DNA from: Polytrichum commune
Taxonomy: Eukaryota; Streptophyta; Polytrichopsida; Polytrichales; Polytrichaceae
DNA length: 64,000 bases
Assembly: GCA_950295325.1 (NCBI GenBank)
Contig: OX485807.1
Location: forward strand, 40,702,440-40,766,439
Direction of reading: 5' to 3'
This document shows, piece after piece, positions 18,356 to 64,000 of the stretch (position 1 is its first letter; each line of letters opens with the position of its first letter). Both the position numbers and the translations under genes were made by a program. A model generated the notes under the pieces. It made no database searches. It was not told the origin of the DNA and worked only from the letters and a program-made list of their open reading frames with translations.

Positions 18356-20086
18356 ATGGGGGAGGACGAAGTATGCGTAGTTACAGGCGGCCGAGGTTTC
18401 GCGGCACGGCATGTAGTTCTAAAGCTCCTGGAGGAAGGCCGGTTCGTGGTTCGGATCGTAGACCTAGCTCCGACGATGACGCTATCACCAGAAGAGCTCG
18501 AAGGACCGATGGGGATGGCACTTTCGAACGGTCGAGTGCAATATGAGTCGTGCGATCTACGCAACAAGATGCGTGTAGCAGAGGCTTTACGCGGGGTTTC
18601 TGTGGTTTTTCACATGGCAGCACCGGATACGTCGATCAATAGTCAGAAACTGCATTACGATGTGACTGTAACGGGAACGAGGAATGTGATCGAGGCTTGT
18701 TTGAAAAACGGTGTAAAGAAGCTGGTGTACACGAGCTCACCGAGTATTGTTTTTGATGGTGTACATGGGATATACAATGGCGATGAGTCGATACCCATAT
18801 GTGATACGCATAACGACTACTACTCAGATGCGAAAGCACATGCGGAGGCATTGGTTTTGGATGCTAATGGGAGGGAGGGGTTGCTGACGTGCGCTGTTCG
18901 GCCGAGTGGGATCTTCGGACCAGGAGATCGGTTGGCTGTGCCTGCTTTTGCTTCGAGTGCGAGAGCTGGGAAATTGAAGTTTATTGTTGGAGATGGTGAG
19001 AATATGTTCGACTGGACGTATGTGGAGAATGTGGCACATGCTCATCTATGTGCTGAGCGGGCCATGGTGCCTGGTGAGTTTGAGGGAGAGCATGTCGCAT
19101 CCGGTAAGGCTTATTTCATCACCAATCGGGAGCCAATTCGGTTCTGGGAGTTTGTCACTATCATCATCACAGGGTTGGGGTACCCTGCACCCAAGTACAA
19201 TCTCCCTGCTAAAGTTGTTATTCAGATTGCTGAAGTTGTTGAGAAAGTTGCGAATCTCTTGGCTCCATTTGGAGTCAAACCTCCTATGAATTTCAATCCA
19301 GTGCGTCTGCGCATTGTCACCACCACCAGAACATTCAACTGCGATAGAGCGACGAAGCTCTTGGGGTACAAGCCCATTGTTTCTCTGGACGAGGGAATAC
19401 GACGCACATTAGACTCAATGCCACACTTACGAGCAGATGCGCCCCAGCCGGAGTCAACAACACCGAGAGAATTCAGAGCAACGTCCAAGATGAGTTCTTT
19501 GATCGGAGGTAATGCCGTTGGTGATCTGGTGATGTGGAAAGACCCCAAGAAGAGCGCAGGAGTCCTTTTTGGGATTCTCACCGTCTTGTACCTCTTCTAC
19601 TCATCAGGCACCACATTACTCTCTGCATTGACATCGAAGCTCATGTTTGCCTTCGTCGCCATTTTCATCTACAGTTACTTACCAGATCCATTCTTTCAAA
19701 TTTCACTCCCGAAGATCCCCCCTGCCTCTTACTTCGAGCTCTCCGAAGAGACAACGCAAGCAATTGCTCTCGAAGTCAGATCGTACTGGAATACAGCCTG
19801 GGGGATCTTGGACAGGATCATTGTGGGAAGAGATTTTGCTCTGTTCTTCAAGGTCATGCTTGTGTTGCGTGTTGCCAAGCTGTTCGGAAGATTTTCCTTC
19901 CAAACCCTTCTCTTTACCAGCTTGTTTGCAGCTTTCAGTGTGCCTTACCTGTATGAACAGAATGAGGAGGAAGTCGACAAGCTGTGGGATCTGGGCATGG
20001 ATACATTCAACCAGTACTGGGGTTTAGTTGCCAGTAAGTTACCGGAGGGCCTTCGTGACCGATTGGAGCAGAAGAAGGTGCAGTAG
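18356..20086 (+). CDS. 3BETAHSD/D: 3beta-hydroxysteroid dehydrogenase/C4-decarboxylase with reticulon domain
   Basis: A single 576-codon exon. In plant sterol synthesis this ER enzyme oxidises and decarboxylates 4alpha-carboxysterols, the second step of C-4 demethylation, after SMO and before the sterone ketoreductase. Residues 6-17 are the NAD(P)-binding TGGRGFA loop. Y156-x-x-x-K160 with S127/S128 (YTSSPS) is the short-chain dehydrogenase catalytic set. FGPGDR (187-192) and DWTYVENVAHAH (219-230) are family hallmarks. Residues ~388-576 form the reticulon-homology domain with two hydrophobic hairpins (~402-445 and ~494-533), known from plant 3BETAHSD/D proteins. The start is the first ATG in a good context (gccATGg), after a CT-rich leader. 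Full length and undamaged. It lacks introns, unlike the flowering-plant homologues as I know them, so a retrogene origin or lineage-wide intron loss is possible. Confidence 0.95.
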   Translation: MGEDEVCVVTGGRGFAARHVVLKLLEEGRFVVRIVDLAPTMTLSPEELEGPMGMALSNGRVQYESCDLRNKMRVAEALRGVSVVFHMAAPDTSINSQKLHYDVTVTGTRNVIEACLKNGVKKLVYTSSPSIVFDGVHGIYNGDESIPICDTHNDYYSDAKAHAEALVLDANGREGLLTCAVRPSGIFGPGDRLAVPAFASSARAGKLKFIVGDGENMFDWTYVENVAHAHLCAERAMVPGEFEGEHVASGKAYFITNREPIRFWEFVTIIITGLGYPAPKYNLPAKVVIQIAEVVEKVANLLAPFGVKPPMNFNPVRLRIVTTTRTFNCDRATKLLGYKPIVSLDEGIRRTLDSMPHLRADAPQPESTTPREFRATSKMSSLIGGNAVGDLVMWKDPKKSAGVLFGILTVLYLFYSSGTTLLSALTSKLMFAFVAIFIYSYLPDPFFQISLPKIPPASYFELSEETTQAIALEVRSYWNTAWGILDRIIVGRDFALFFKVMLVLRVAKLFGRFSFQTLLFTSLFAAFSVPYLYEQNEEEVDKLWDLGMDTFNQYWGLVASKLPEGLRDRLEQKKVQ

Positions 20087-34178: not shown

Positions 34179-45781
<11,603 letters not shown>

Positions 45782-49815: not shown

Positions 49816-51657
49816 ATGAGCCAACTTTTGTTATCATCGATGTTCGGTCGTATAAGTAAAGAGGAGAATCAATCTTATGTTGAGAAGGCTGCCGAGGTTG
49901 ACCGGTTGGAGCACAAAGATAAGAAGAAACCTTGTGATATTATCAAGAACCCGGTTGGTAGACCTAAAAAAATTAGACGATTGGAGATGAGTTTGGTTTC
50001 CAACATATCTCCAATATTGCAACCTTCATCTTTTGGTACTAAGGCTAGGGTGAGGGGGTCTTACACCAATTGGTTTACGCATGAGCTTTGGCCTCCAATT
50101 GAAGCAGCTATGAAACAACACAAAAATCATACTGCTGCATTGAAATATTTGAGGATTACTCATCGCACCAAGGGTACATCTACAGGGCCTTACGATAAAT
50201 TGTCACGAGGAAGTTTAAATGAGTGGTTCACAACCAGTGGAGAGATTCGAGGTCATGTTTTTGCATGTGTTGCAAGAGAACACGCATTTGTACCTCAAGG
50301 GCAACACATGCCACCACTTCAATCGCATATGGAGGTTACCACAGAACTTGTGGAATTACTCTTAAGTATGAGGGAAGCAGGTGTTTCTCTGCATGCTGGA
50401 ATTGTTCAACCAATCATTATTGGTTTTCTCCAAGAAAAAGCCCCCGAAGTACTCCAAAAATTGAAGGTGTCATTGAATTGGACTAGGAGATTTATGCGAT
50501 CTAGGCTCAATTGGCGATTTCGGAAGCCCACAACGGTTAAGGGTAAACTTCCAACTGATTGGGTAAATCAAGGTCACATGATGACCTTGAGAATTGCATA
50601 CTTGGTTAAACTATACAACATACCTCTTAGTCTTGTGGTGAATACTGATCAAACAAGCATACATTTGGTACCATTAGCTGGAGATAGGACTTGGGAAAAG
50701 AAAGGATCCAATGATGTTGGCGTTATTGGAGGTGATGACAAAAGGGCTATCACTGCTTGTGTATCTTCAGCAGCAAATGGTTCTTTACTTCCGCTTCAAC
50801 TCATATTTTCAGGGACTACAAAGAGAGTCATACCCAAAACTCAGCGAGGACGGCAAGGCCTTGATTATGGTTTTCATTTCACTATGAGTGGGAATCATTG
50901 GTCGAATTTGGAATCTATGAAACAATTTGTGAATTTCATAATTGTTCCATATCTTCACCGTGAGAGTGACATGTTAAATCTTTCTAGTTCGCAAAATATG
51001 GTGTGGCTTATTGATTGTTGGAGCGTACATACCAGTTCAGAATTTCGACTTTGGATGAAAACAACTCATCCCCGCATTTTGTTGCTTTATGTGCCGGCTA
51101 ATTGCACATCTAAATTTCAACCAGCAGATGTTGTCTTACAAAGGCCTTTAAAATGTGCTTTTGCAAATTTTTTAAAGTTATGGTCTGCAAGTGAAATTCA
51201 AAGGATGGTGGCTAGTAAAGTGCTAGTTGGTGCAATGAAGGTTGATAGTTCAATGGAGACAGTCCGTGAAAATGCTGCTGAGTGGATGTTTATGGCTTGG
51301 GATAAGCTTCGAGTTCATAAAGAGATGATTGCATCCGGTTGGGCGCGATGTGGGATTCTAAAAGCGTGGGACTTTCAAATTCAGAATGAAGCAATGAGAG
51401 TGAATTTTGAGAAATCTCTTTTTGGAGAATTAGGCAATCTTGTTGAAGACCAAAATTCGGAATTAGATGTTCCTGATTATTATTTAGACATGGATGTTTT
51501 AGATTGTTTAGCTCGTTGTGTGTCTAACTTGAGCATATCTGATGAGATAGACTTACCTGATTTGAATGAAAGTCTTGACTTGGAGAATGGCATACTAGAT
51601 TTTGCACATTTTGATTCTACTGGGACTGAAGAATGCCCACCAACAAGTGAGAATTAG
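49816..51657 (+). CDS. pogo-like DDE transposase
   Basis: 613 aa, uninterrupted. The cut-and-paste transposase of the surrounding element. Residues ~46-52 (PVGRPKK) form an AT-hook. Residues ~214-245 (LNWTRRFMRSRLNWRFR) resemble the second helix-turn-helix of the Tc5/CENP-B type DNA-binding region. The catalytic core of the DDE_1 superfamily has D278 in VVNTDQTS, D400 in WLIDCWSVH and D438 in KFQPADVVLQRPLK, a D-D-D triad with the usual N-x-T preceding the last D (ANCTSKFQPAD). A good splice acceptor (gttttcatacag, exon from 49808) sits 8 bases before the ATG, so a 5' UTR exon is likely. The C-terminal tail (540-613) is acidic. Intact, hence potentially active. Confidence 0.9.
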   Translation: MSQLLLSSMFGRISKEENQSYVEKAAEVDRLEHKDKKKPCDIIKNPVGRPKKIRRLEMSLVSNISPILQPSSFGTKARVRGSYTNWFTHELWPPIEAAMKQHKNHTAALKYLRITHRTKGTSTGPYDKLSRGSLNEWFTTSGEIRGHVFACVAREHAFVPQGQHMPPLQSHMEVTTELVELLLSMREAGVSLHAGIVQPIIIGFLQEKAPEVLQKLKVSLNWTRRFMRSRLNWRFRKPTTVKGKLPTDWVNQGHMMTLRIAYLVKLYNIPLSLVVNTDQTSIHLVPLAGDRTWEKKGSNDVGVIGGDDKRAITACVSSAANGSLLPLQLIFSGTTKRVIPKTQRGRQGLDYGFHFTMSGNHWSNLESMKQFVNFIIVPYLHRESDMLNLSSSQNMVWLIDCWSVHTSSEFRLWMKTTHPRILLLYVPANCTSKFQPADVVLQRPLKCAFANFLKLWSASEIQRMVASKVLVGAMKVDSSMETVRENAAEWMFMAWDKLRVHKEMIASGWARCGILKAWDFQIQNEAMRVNFEKSLFGELGNLVEDQNSELDVPDYYLDMDVLDCLARCVSNLSISDEIDLPDLNESLDLENGILDFAHFDSTGTEECPPTSEN

Positions 51658-59262: not shown

Positions 59263-62200
59263 TCAGCCTCCAAAATCTTCTCTTGCGAACTTGTCTTCAG
59301 GATAATACACGGCAACTACTGAATTTCCTCCAAATCGTCGCCCATGAAGTGATGCTTTCGCCTTAGCAGCACCAGCTGTGTCTGCATACTCGACAAAGAC
59401 CTTCAACACCAACAAACTTGTCAGAATATTGAGGGAGATGATACGAGGGCGGCACGTGACAAAAAGTTATCACAGAAAGGAAGTGCCCACAAAGTAGACA
59501 GATGCTAACCTTGCCTACGCCAGGAACATCTTCACCAGGTCTTGGCCTTGGAATGACAACCTTCACTAGGTTCCCTGCACAAAGATCACTAAAAATAAGT
59601 TACATGTTCATTTTTGAAGGGGCCTCAACATATGAATGAATACTTAACAACAATAGGACAGCATTCAGGTTCAGAACCTACCATACTTCCCGCACTCTTC
59701 TCTCATATCTTCCAAAATCTCCTGATATTCCTCATCATCTTTCAGTTCATCTGCTGTACAAACCTGCACAAGAAAGGATGTTGTTAGTGGACTCCATTCC
59801 AGTTCAATGTAATCTGACAACAAACTACTAATTTCAACTCATATACAGTGACCTAGGACAGAAAGCCATTTGTGAATATTCAGCTTGTGAGATGCACTCA
59901 CCTGAGTCAATGCAACCACATTGGTAGCCGTTTCCATTGGTGAGAGACCATTTCCCATTCCAGGCATCATGCCCATCATTGGAAGCGTACCCATCATAGA
60001 CATACCACCTAATGCCACTGCATTTGCACCGCTAGCTTGCAAAGCAAGTTTCTGGAAGCCCACATGATGTATAAGTACTCTGCTCAAGAATGTCAGTTCA
60101 GATATAGTACCAACATCTAGAATGCATAAACTTAACCTCTAAGGTTGCCAATTGTCCACATCAAATCATTCATTCCTTTCAAACCACACTAGGTTTCCAC
60201 AAATTGCTCATCAGTATGAAAATGCACCTGGATAGCAATCTGGTGTTGCGCTTGAGCTAAAACATTTGCTTGATCAGGTTTTGGTTGTCCACTGCAATTA
60301 AAAGCATTGAAAGCTGTATTAGACAGGTTACAAACTTCCAATACAACCTGATGCAACTGTCCAGTATGCCTTGCACTTATTTTGAAAAACTTCTTTTAAA
60401 AAGTACAAGAAAACAGCACTTCCTGGGAGTTTAATTTGTCCATTGTCCATTGCAAATTCCATCCACATGTTCCTCTCCTTAGGTCCCTTTTCGTAGGATT
60501 GCATGGTGGATCTCAGATCGACAATACAATGCAGCATGAGCAATAACCTAGTGCAGGAAAACCTTCTTGTGAAATGTAAAGAGGTCAACTCATGAGCATA
60601 AAGCCTTGACATATGAGTGGACTAAAGCCAACCTTGCAGTGGCTCGGCGGACGTTTAATGTCTTGTCATCCATTTTCATGCCATTAAGCGTTGCACAGGC
60701 AATATCCACAACTGACGGATCCTGCGAAAGGGGAAAATAGAGGGCCACACAGCCACACAGACGGATAGGAGTGAGCAAGATAAGCAAACTTCCTACCTGG
60801 CAGATGCGCGACGCACGCTTAGTGTCTTATCACCCATTTTCAAACCATTAAGTGCCGCAATGGCGACGTCTGTGACAGCTGGGTCCTGCAGAATATGTGG
60901 TTTGTCACGGCTCACAAGTTAACCATGGGGAGGTGCACAACTATTGTTCTAGCGGTTGTTATAAGCTCAGCAAAGCCTTCATAGACATTCTCCATGACAA
61001 ACCCTTGAGGTGAAATGCGTCGCTTTGTAAGTGAAGCCCATCGAGGAGATATTTTCAGATGCATTGGGTAGGTTTGGGCTATCAGATAGTGAAGGACACT
61101 GAGGTAGACCACGTAAGTTCAGACCTTGGGAAAGAAATTGTACCTGATAAACACAAAAGCCATAACCTTTGGAATTTCCCGTGTCACGATCTTTGACAAG
61201 ATCAAAACCTCGCAGAGGCCTAGCAGTGAAAACGGTGAAGGATGAGACGTGATATCAAAACAGATTGATGAACAAGCACACACATCATTGCAATTAATGC
61301 ACAAATCATACCCTACTACCATTAACATTCTATTGTATTGGTGCATGGTATATAATATGTATATTCCAGAACTGTAGTGAATGAATTGGATCAATTCTCC
61401 TCACCCAAAAGATTCAAGTAACTCCTTGATCTGAACTTCTGTCAAGTAATAGGGCAAACCACCAACAAAAATGCGATCCGGACCATCAGCACCCCCAGCA
61501 GCACTTCTGCATTCATATAAAAAACTGGTTTAAGATACAACTACTGGAACTCTGGCATTTCTATTAAGAAAATTACTGCAAAAACCAGAAGTGGACTAGC
61601 TTGGTACAAGATAGTACAATAAAAACAGATACAAGCAACTTTTAAGGACCTTGAGATACTGCTGGAGAAGAAACTTCTTGAGTTATGCAAGCAGGTTCCT
61701 TCCTCATTCAACACTAATTATAGAATAATGGTCACTACTTTGTAGAAAGCTTACCCTGGGGTTAGGCCAACAGCAGCCAGGTTAAGATGCGGGCTAGGCT
61801 GACTTGGACCTAGGGTAGCAGCCATAGAAGGGTTGTAATCACTTGGCCTTCGAACTCTCACAGAGACACCCTGTCAGTAACCAAAAAAACAACGTTAAAT
61901 GAAATCCATCACACATCCTACCTGAACTGAGCTTGACTACCTCTATAATAACAACACATATCTAAAACTGCAGATAACCTTTTTATAGTGCCAACTGCTG
62001 CTGTAAGGTTGAGCATCAAAAACCTCACGACATCTGATGAGCAAAATGTTACGTCAAAGAAAGAAAAACTGTTACCTCAAAGATAATGCCATCTAAAGCC
62101 ATTGCATTACTAGCTTCTTCAACAGTCCTCATCTCCACAAATGCAAACTTTTTCTCTTGATTGATGTAGACATTCACAACAGCATCACCTATAATAGAAC

Positions 62201-64000
62201 CCAAGCTGGCTCAGTAACACCACACAGCCATAATGATACACAGATCAAAGTATCTCACAAGGATCTTTGCTGTAAGTGTTTCAAAAAAGGATGGAGAAGT
62301 AGGTACCAGAGAAGATAGATTTTTACTACACAAAGGAAGACTGTGAATGTACTAGTCAACTACATTCATAATGCTCTTAAATCAGAAATGTGATGCCTAA
62401 AAACCAACATACCTGGACCAGCGGTGTTTCCTCCGACAGCAGCCATCACCTGACTAAAAAAGGTCGCAATTGTCTAAACCATACAACAGCAGCAGAAGTG
62501 GTTGGTCAACATAGATATCCAAGATATACAATTACCGGCCAAACCTTCCAAGAAGAGACTCGGAGATAATGTCAATAGATCATGGCACACATGATTCTCT
62601 TCCAGGTTAACACCTACACCATTGAACTTGCTTTACTTTACCAATGACTTCAACAGCTTAATTATGTTGGCACAATGGGTAATAAGTTATCTGTCTGGCA
62701 GGATTTAGGATCACTTTCATAGCAGGTGAGATAGAAACAGGAGCTTCCTATGCGCCTGCAGGTTGGAATCCTGAAAGAGTGACTAACAACAGCAGCGTCA
62801 CCTGACTGAAAAATGTGGCGACCGTCTGAAAAACAAACACCATAGAAAGAAAAGGCTAAAGTTTAGGGGGCAGAGAAACCCCTTGAACTCTGACAACCAA
62901 AGCTTATTGCATGGGACTGGCTAAAGGAACCGCAACTGTACACGATACACTTTGTGATTCTATGACTGCCCATTGGTGCCTCCACTACCATGAGGAACTC
63001 ACTGAGTCACCCAACCCAGAAACATAGGACTTGACACACAATGCCAGACCTTACCTTATTGAGTCCCATTGACACCTTGAAAATGAGTATCAAGTTGCAC
63101 CAACTCTTGGCAGGGAAGCATTTTGACCTCTAGATTAACTTCTGTTATGCTGTATGTTCATGTGCGCATTAGCATTACACGATCTGGATACCACACTCAG
63201 GTGCTATAAATGTCCAGCAAACATTGCTAGAAACCCACATCCTACTTACAGAAAAGTAACCGGTCAAGCTAATGACTTTCATTGCAAATGTGCAATTAAT
63301 TGCTTTAACATGAAGAGATCACTCACTTGCTCATTCGCCATGGGTGGAAGACCTCCAACGTAAACTCGGCGAGCATGCCTGGTTGCCTACAAAAAAAACG
63401 TCCACAATGTCAATAAAATTCTTCCTTTAATAAACACTAAACTATTTTCCTTGTTAATATTAATTCATTACAAACTGGTGCAATCTGCATAAAATTATTC
63501 AGAGCTACCTTCTGAAAGGTAGATCATAACTATATTGGTGGCCATGACTCCTTTCCCACTGTTCTTAGCATCAAAGATGTTGGCAAGCCACTGATATATA
63601 TCAATATGTTTCATACTCAAACAAGGTTTAGACAACAATAGGAGCACTTCCACAAAATGCCACAACACCTGAGAAAAGGGGATTAAAGAGTTTCTACGAT
63701 GTTTCATTAAGACAATACCAAGGGTGACTACAACTTAATACATCTTGGTATGTGAAGGTCACTGAGCAGTAAGAAGCAGAATCACCTGTTGAGTCATGGC
63801 TTGTGCTGGCATTCCAGGGAGACCTCCAAACTGATTGATCACCAAAGTACTTGATTACTATATAGCAGGCTAGAGGACTCACCTCTGACTCATTGAAGTC
63901 AGAACTTAAAACACACCAACATATGACAGGTTAAAATATCAAAAGCAATATCACCATGAGATAGAACCACATACCTGTGTACCACCGAAAGGGAACATTC
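59263..64000 (-). CDS. U2AF65: U2 snRNP auxiliary factor large subunit U2AF65 (5' partial)
   Basis: Binds the polypyrimidine tract at 3' splice sites in the nucleus and recruits U2 snRNP with U2AF35. Exons, 5' to 3': 63975->64000, 63786-63830, 63327-63386, 62413-62473, 62076-62188, 61755-61870, 61405-61506, 61144-61219, then either 60797-60885 or 60633-60721, 60228-60291, 59902-60051, 59682-59763, 59510-59574, 59263-59400 (stop TGA 59263-59265). All are GT-AG and in phase; 395 codons are visible. RRM1 (ARRVYVGGLPPMANEQ, KKFAFVEMRTVEEASNAMALDG), RRM2 (DRIFVGGLPYYLTEVQIKELLESF, SKGYGFCVYQ) and a C-terminal UHM (VVIPRPRPGEDVPGVGKVFV, with the R-x-F motif in GRRFGG) are all present. The RS domain and ligand motif would be right of the window. 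The methionine/glycine-rich exon 59902-60051 lies in the RRM2-UHM linker. Two exon duplications are described separately. Confidence 0.95.
60633..60721 (-). other. U2AF65: U2AF65 alternative RRM2 exon B
   Basis: 89 nt; starts in phase 0 and ends in phase 2. Encodes DPSVVDIACATLNGMKMDDK then TLNVRRATA, the last helix and strand of RRM2. Preceded by a strong pyrimidine tract (ctattttcccctttcgcag). Homologous to exon A (20 of 29 residues identical). Lies 75 bases downstream of exon A. Confidence 0.85.
60797..60885 (-). other. U2AF65: U2AF65 alternative RRM2 exon A
   Basis: 89 nt, same phases as exon B. Encodes DPAVTDVAIAALNGLKMGDK then TLSVRRASA, retaining the MGDKTL core usual in plant U2AF65. 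Its acceptor (aaaccacatattctgcag) has a poor pyrimidine tract; its donor is gtaggaag. Confidence 0.85.
62802..62825 (-). other. U2AF65: duplicated remnant of a U2AF65 RRM1 exon
   Basis: A strong acceptor (tgtttgtttttcag) is followed by codons TVATFFSQ, the same start as the functional exon 62413-62473 (TIATFFSQVMAAVGG...). After CAG the copy carries a one-to-two-base deletion (gtgacgctgctg against gtgatggctgctg) and loses frame. A gtgacg donor right after CAG could make a 24-nt in-frame microexon, or this is a dead copy. Confidence 0.6.

Follow-up and report, generated by a model that had tools for sequence, protein, structure and literature searches.

Most of a gene for U2AF65, the large subunit of U2AF, including its 3' part, lies on the minus strand between positions 64000 and 59263 of the window, the whole stretch of 64,000 nucleotides from Polytrichum commune that was analysed. 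The message within the window comprises 14 exons with GT-AG borders, plus one additional copy of the ninth exon (Table 1), and the spliced product is a single open frame of 394 amino acids. The 5' part of the gene, with the N-terminal RS domain, is expected upstream, beyond the window. Identification of the gene rests on the TIGR01642 (U2AF_lg) profile, which scores 473.6 bits with the form containing exon A and 471.5 bits with the form containing exon B, over the cut-off of 310.3, and which spans both RRMs and the C-terminal UHM (residues 15-392). Solved RRM1-RRM2 chains of the U2AF 65 kDa subunit, which we take to be human, were the top matches to residues 22-229 (6.4e-56), and UHM chains of the same subunit separately matched residues 292-392 (1.9e-23), both among the best 60 of 212 matches. 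Searches with 250 of the 394 residues against a viral contig collection (4 pattern-matching stretches) and a genome contig collection (58 such stretches) found no relative, as expected for a plant gene.

Other coding regions occur in the window. Pieces of a JmjN/JmjC histone-demethylase-like gene are found in successive ORFs at 37028-42598 on the minus strand, where JmjN, two JmjC pieces and a C5HC2 zinc finger score above the Pfam cut-offs and KDM5_C-hel and FYRN score below them. An unbroken ORF of 576 amino acids on the plus strand (18356-20086) encodes a 3-beta-HSD domain fused with a reticulon domain at the C terminus. A second unbroken plus-strand ORF, of 613 amino acids (49816-51657), encodes a DDE_1 transposase domain; it is possibly a young DNA transposon, and some 7.6 kb separate it from the 3' end of the U2AF65 coding sequence. 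No tRNA genes were found within the 64-kb window.

Table 1. Exons of the U2AF65 gene and features of the A/B region, in window coordinates.
Feature	Position	Strand	Remarks
E1	64000-63975	-	cut by window end
E2	63830-63786	-	
E3	63386-63327	-	
E4b	62473-62413	-	RRM1 exon
E5	62188-62076	-	
E6	61870-61755	-	
E7	61506-61405	-	
E8	61219-61144	-	
Stem arm 1	60910-60924	-	E8-A intron, over a branch-point match of A
Exon A	60885-60797	-	89 nt, RRM2 helix a2 to strand b4
A-B intron	60796-60722	-	75 nt, shortest of 14 introns
Exon B	60721-60633	-	89 nt, homologous alternative to A
Stem arm 2	60583-60597	-	B-E10 intron, about 35 nt downstream of the B 5' site
E10	60291-60228	-	
E11	60051-59902	-	
E12	59763-59682	-	
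E13	59574-59510	-	
E14	59400-59263	-	

Exons A and B have the properties by which tandem homologous exclusive exons are recognized. They are adjacent, homologous and equal in length, each is bordered by its own AG and GT, and each starts in phase 0 and ends in phase 2. A message that joins E8 to A and then to E10 is open, as is one that joins E8 to B and then to E10. Inclusion of both exons results in a TGA at the 16th codon from the A/B junction codon (nucleotides 44-46 of B, 60678-60676), which lies 43 nt ahead of the B/E10 junction and 107 nt ahead of the E10/E11 junction. Skipping of both results in a TGA at the sixth codon of E10 (60276-60274). Thus, inclusion or skipping of both exons disrupts the protein. 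A preliminary description of this DNA had reported two homologous 89-nt exons, 75 nt apart and with these phases, of which either one keeps the message open and both or neither lead to a TGA, and had counted nine differences among the 29 encoded residues; the recomputed coordinates, phases and frames and the protein comparison all agree with it. Its statement that exactly one exon must be used is right for the full protein, but mRNAs with both exons or neither could still be made as products bound for nonsense-mediated decay (NMD). NMD would be expected of the message containing both exons because its stop lies upstream of several later junctions. Were NMD escaped, that message would yield a protein with a complete RRM2 (RRM_1 70.6 bits) and no UHM. 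Since a message that encodes the full protein can, by its frame, contain only A or B, the plant can probably make two protein forms. The sequence of the locus supports an assignment of A and B as tandem-duplicated, frame-enforced exclusive exons in RRM2 of U2AF65.

The homology of A and B is well above chance. Their local alignment score is 33.5, whereas 1000 shuffles averaged 7.6 and reached at most 16.5, and a repeat search returned a direct repeat of 98 nt (70%) that ends at the splice signals. No clear similarity was detected between the flanking introns in local alignment (7.0 versus a shuffle mean of 7.0) or in the other comparison of these introns (9.0 versus a mean of 8.0, s.d. 1.5). 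The exons differ at 28 of 89 nucleotides, distributed over the three codon positions as 8, 4 and 16. A single assembly could in principle contain a duplication created by misassembly or collapse, and no support for such an artefact was found; copies that have diverged to this extent, between introns that do not align above shuffles, make it extremely improbable.

The pattern of divergence indicates selection on the encoded protein. The comparison of replacement with silent change, a check suggested in the preliminary description, gave a Nei-Gojobori pN of 0.17 and a pS of 0.77, the latter saturated and beyond correction and both from a pairwise comparison only. Nine of the 12 fourfold sites common to A and B differ (95% interval 0.43-0.95). 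The nine replacements are mostly conservative (BLOSUM62 sum of +6), with 20 of 29 residues kept, and exon B contains no stops and no indels. The RRM_1 scores of the two forms are nearly equal (70.3 bits for A and 66.8 bits for B). In neutral simulations, in which one copy drifted without indels at one composition and the other was held fixed, 30 of 4000 runs (0.75%) at 0.4 substitutions per site ended with the frame open and 20 or more of the 29 residues retained; at 0.6, 0.8, 1.0 and 1.5 substitutions per site, none of the 4000 runs made at each level did so. By these measures, the A/B duplication is old and both copies are under coding constraint.

A second duplication in the same gene had a different fate. 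The intron between E3 and E4b contains, at 62798-62830 on the minus strand, a copy of part of the RRM1 exon E4b (62826-62798 against 62473-62446), here called E4a. The repeat is 33 nt long (79%), with a local score of 27.5 compared to a maximum of 24.5 in 500 shuffles. E4a reads QTVATFFSQV, after which the frame is lost, about 30 nt in. It has a cag acceptor and a donor-like site, gtgacg. E4a was considered as a member of a second exclusive pair and rejected; decay is likelier, given that the homology continues beyond its donor and the frame is lost. Joined as a 24-nt microexon to the AGTCAG inside E4b, E4a would keep the frame with only an I/V change, and low-level use of this kind is possible. 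Within one gene, the E4 duplicate has probably decayed, whereas A and B are both intact.

The splice signals of A and B look complementary. The acceptor tract of A has the lowest T content of the 14 introns (0.23). Its pyrimidine content is ordinary (0.55, with 2 of the 13 other introns lower and 2 equal), and a poor pyrimidine tract was accordingly dropped as a special feature of A. The acceptor tract of B (60746-60725) is 82% pyrimidine, the highest of the 14. Pairing with U1, scored over four exonic and eight intronic bases, ranks the donor of A second of 14 (-11.0 kcal/mol) and the donor of B last (-5.4 kcal/mol), the next weakest, that of E13, being barely stronger (-5.6 kcal/mol). A therefore combines a T-poor tract with a strong donor, and B a rich tract with a weak donor. 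The preliminary description had called the borders of both exons good; GT and AG are present at each, but the adjective does not suit the weakest donor of the gene or the tract lowest in T.

The rank of the B donor would also be expected if B were a rarely used relict in a gene that effectively uses A only. Of the two copies, B, with the weakest donor, is the more likely candidate for such a relict; A is closer to the solved human RRM2 (18 versus 15 of 29 residues identical; BLOSUM 83 versus 65). This explanation is nevertheless quite improbable: the neutral simulations hardly reproduce the state of B, which has kept its frame, is preceded by the pyrimidine-richest tract of the gene and gives a protein with nearly the same U2AF_lg score as A.

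The position of the predicted branch points of B suggests how joining of A to B might be avoided. Only two YTNAY matches in the A-B intron are 12 nt or more away from the acceptor, with branch adenines at intron nucleotides 16 (60781) and 25 (60772), counted from the donor of A; these are motif predictions. At these distances, they may sterically discourage the joining of A to B. Weak branch points might also be provided by the adenines at intron nucleotides 31 and 59. The AG-free zone of this intron is 65 nt, and two other introns have longer ones (69 and 91 nt). No YTNAY match falls within 12-45 nt of the acceptor, which is also true of 3 of the 13 other introns, and this was consequently dropped as special to the A-B intron. 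For exon A, one branch-point match has its adenine at 60919, at a distance of 33 nt from the 3' site.

Enforcement of exclusivity by distant branch points has its classic example in alpha-tropomyosin. A parallel is offered by OGDH exons 4a and 4b, where exclusivity is enforced by branch points that lie 25-41 nt from the 5' site, under a steric threshold of about 50 nt (PMC7969005). That threshold is an animal value, and the limit in plants may differ. The two pairs are alike in consisting of duplicated exons, in the closeness of the second exon's branch points to the 5' site of the first, and in the AG-free zone and pyrimidine tract between the exons. They differ in the length of the intron, 75 nt here compared to 118-131 nt in birds and mammals (PMC7969005), and in that the branch points here are motif matches.

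RNA structure, as in docking-selector systems with their competing conserved pairings, offers another possible route to exclusivity. An uninterrupted stem of 15 bp, three of them G-U, can form between the introns upstream of A and downstream of B (Table 1), with an energy for the two arms of -21.3 kcal/mol. The pairing brackets the A-B cassette. By covering a branch-point match of A, it might close A and leave B available, an explanation that is compatible with the one preferred below. The score of the stem has a P of 0.006 in 2000 dinucleotide shuffles, the lowest among 25 intron pairs (the other 24 were given 200 shuffles each), and the P for its length is 0.03. As the best of 25 pairs, it has a P of about 0.15 after correction, which is not significant. 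Moreover, the E1-E2 and E2-E3 introns, which have no known alternative exon pair between them, hold a longer stem of 18 bp (length P 0/200, score P 0.01). Among contiguous stems, no competing pairing above chance appeared in either of the two remaining intron pairs of the cassette, and whole-intron duplexes gave z values of -0.95, 0.72 and -1.67. The stem is a lead, and it seems rather unlikely that exclusivity is imposed by it.

Alignment to the solved U2AF65 places the exon at human residues 309-337, numbered by counting, a segment that comprises helix a2 with its run-up, a loop and strand b4. The counted numbering agrees with G319, G326, K329, G338 and K340 of the papers cited below. A and B differ at positions 311, 313, 315, 317, 319, 323, 326, 331 and 336. 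On the RRM2 side of human U2AF65, the contacts to RNA include K260, F304, the backbone of K329, G338 and K340 (PMC4786784). Only position 329 of these falls within the whole codons of the exon, and it is threonine in both A and B; none of the contacts named here differs between the two. Position 326, where the preliminary description had pointed out a G/D difference, corresponds to a glycine that is solvent exposed and does not contact RNA, as described for G326V/R (PMC7408900). The proposal that the two forms would differ in polypyrimidine-tract preference thus finds little backing, with the named contact identical and position 326 off the RNA, and different base preferences of the A and B forms are not indicated.

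It is plausible that A and B differ in 3'-site choice through the stability or dynamics of RRM2. The closest evidence for a functional effect comes from the human substitution G319V, which caused comparatively mild changes in splicing and stability and is cited among those that alter how competing 3' sites are balanced (PMC7408900). Position 319 is alanine versus threonine in the pair described here; the human variant is glycine to valine, not alanine to threonine.

The stops in the non-productive messages suggest a further alternative, in which the pair serves dosage control: inclusion of both exons or neither would yield NMD-bound mRNA, as autoregulatory unproductive splicing, and the protein difference between A and B would be nearly neutral. 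The two later junctions downstream of the A+B stop and the conservative nature of most A/B replacements are consistent with this alternative, and related genes behave in a comparable way. Arabidopsis U2AF65A switches between coding and PTC-containing isoforms with temperature (PMC6033173), and RBM39, a homologue of U2AF2, autoregulates via a poison exon (PMC10477243). A pure poison exon, however, has no need of an intact RRM2 frame, nor would it be expected to have 20 of 29 residues in common with its partner despite saturated silent divergence. Dosage control as the main role of the pair is judged unlikely. RBM39 resembles the present case as a U2AF2-like protein that regulates, at a 3' site, how its own transcript is spliced (PMC10477243), but differs in that a poison exon is used there and a homologous coding pair is found here.

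Alternative splicing is known for U2AF65 genes of Arabidopsis. In U2AF65A, intron 11 can be retained, exon 11 has an alternative 3' site and an exitron occurs, and each of these events leads to PTC-bearing transcripts (PMC6033173), and the splicing of ATU2AF65A responds to ambient temperature (PMC5336241). Arabidopsis U2AF65B is alternatively spliced at its fourth intron (PMC4419537). The gene described here would be similar to these in the switching of a plant U2AF65 transcript, with a likely regulatory output. The portions of PMC6033173 and PMC4419537 that were available contain no mention of a duplicated RRM2 exon for Arabidopsis U2AF65A or U2AF65B.

By analogy, the closest precedent for A/B is the vertebrate U2AF1 (U2AF35) pair Ab/3, tandem exons of 67 nt that change seven residues, and of which the inclusion of both or neither results in stop codons and NMD (PMC5224494, PMC4402522). 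Both pairs affect the same heterodimer, both consist of equal-length tandem homologous exons, and in both only a small number of residues in an RRM-type domain are altered. The choice between Ab and 3 is regulated by U2AF itself, a feature that A/B would share, as such regulation is proposed here. The pairs differ in subunit and kingdom, and in size, with 89 nt and nine residues here versus 67 nt and seven in U2AF1; expression has been shown for Ab/3, whereas A/B is predicted from sequence. With a gene that is U2AF65 and not U2AF35, A/B is an analogue of Ab/3 and not a member of the same pair, and we infer that it originated independently.

A pair of this type in U2AF65 does not appear to have been described. 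No description was found in the open-licence PMC literature among the matches listed, and the available sections of two papers on plant U2AF65A/U2AF65B gene families (PMC8635922, PMC12027700) describe no such pair. The accessible text of PMC9741552 contained no match for U2AF1 or plants. Section 2.7 of PMC12027700 reports that U2AF65B is alternatively spliced in three bryophytes, based on Phytozome, and the kind of splicing is unstated there. It is possible that the A/B pair was annotated earlier among those bryophyte splicing data.

The evidence from the locus is best explained by an old tandem duplication that has been kept as a functional mutually exclusive pair, giving two U2AF65 proteins, and we regard this explanation as likely. 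In a productive transcript, one of the two exons would link E8 with E10, yielding proteins with nine differences in helix a2, the loop after it and strand b4 of RRM2. Exclusivity would be enforced first by predicted branch points of the A-B intron too near the 5' splice site of A, and second by the frame, as mRNAs with both exons or neither contain stops that would be expected to lead to NMD. The choice of exon would be made by competing signals, the T-poor tract and strong 5' site of A against the rich tract, AG-free zone and weakest 5' site of B. The two proteins would differ mainly in the stability, dynamics or partners of RRM2, not in direct RNA contacts, which may shift the balance between competing 3' sites.

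Given the complementary signals of A and B, U2AF activity itself could set the ratio of the two forms, A being favoured when U2AF is high and B when it is low. Longer AG exclusion zones and longer tracts characterize the exons whose use increases in human cells upon depletion of U2AF35 (PMC4402522). This pattern leads to the prediction that B would rise when U2AF falls. In its fullest version, the pair would be a self-tuning toggle, in which U2AF reads the tracts of A and B in its own pre-mRNA and thereby picks the RRM2 it will contain, with an origin independent of the vertebrate U2AF35 pair. Exclusivity would then be threefold, through branch points near the 5' site, through frame and NMD, and perhaps through the stem over the branch point of A. 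We put this version forward tentatively, as a possibility that is on balance doubtful.

The reading of 3' splice sites falls mainly to U2AF65. If the interpretation of A and B as a functional exclusive pair is correct, Polytrichum commune would provide an independent U2AF65 counterpart to the vertebrate U2AF35 exon pair, and a direct way of asking whether plants adjust their choice of 3' sites by altering the reader. Isoforms that differ by the exon swap isolate nine residues of RRM2, and would allow the effect of these residues on 3'-site selection to be cleanly measured.
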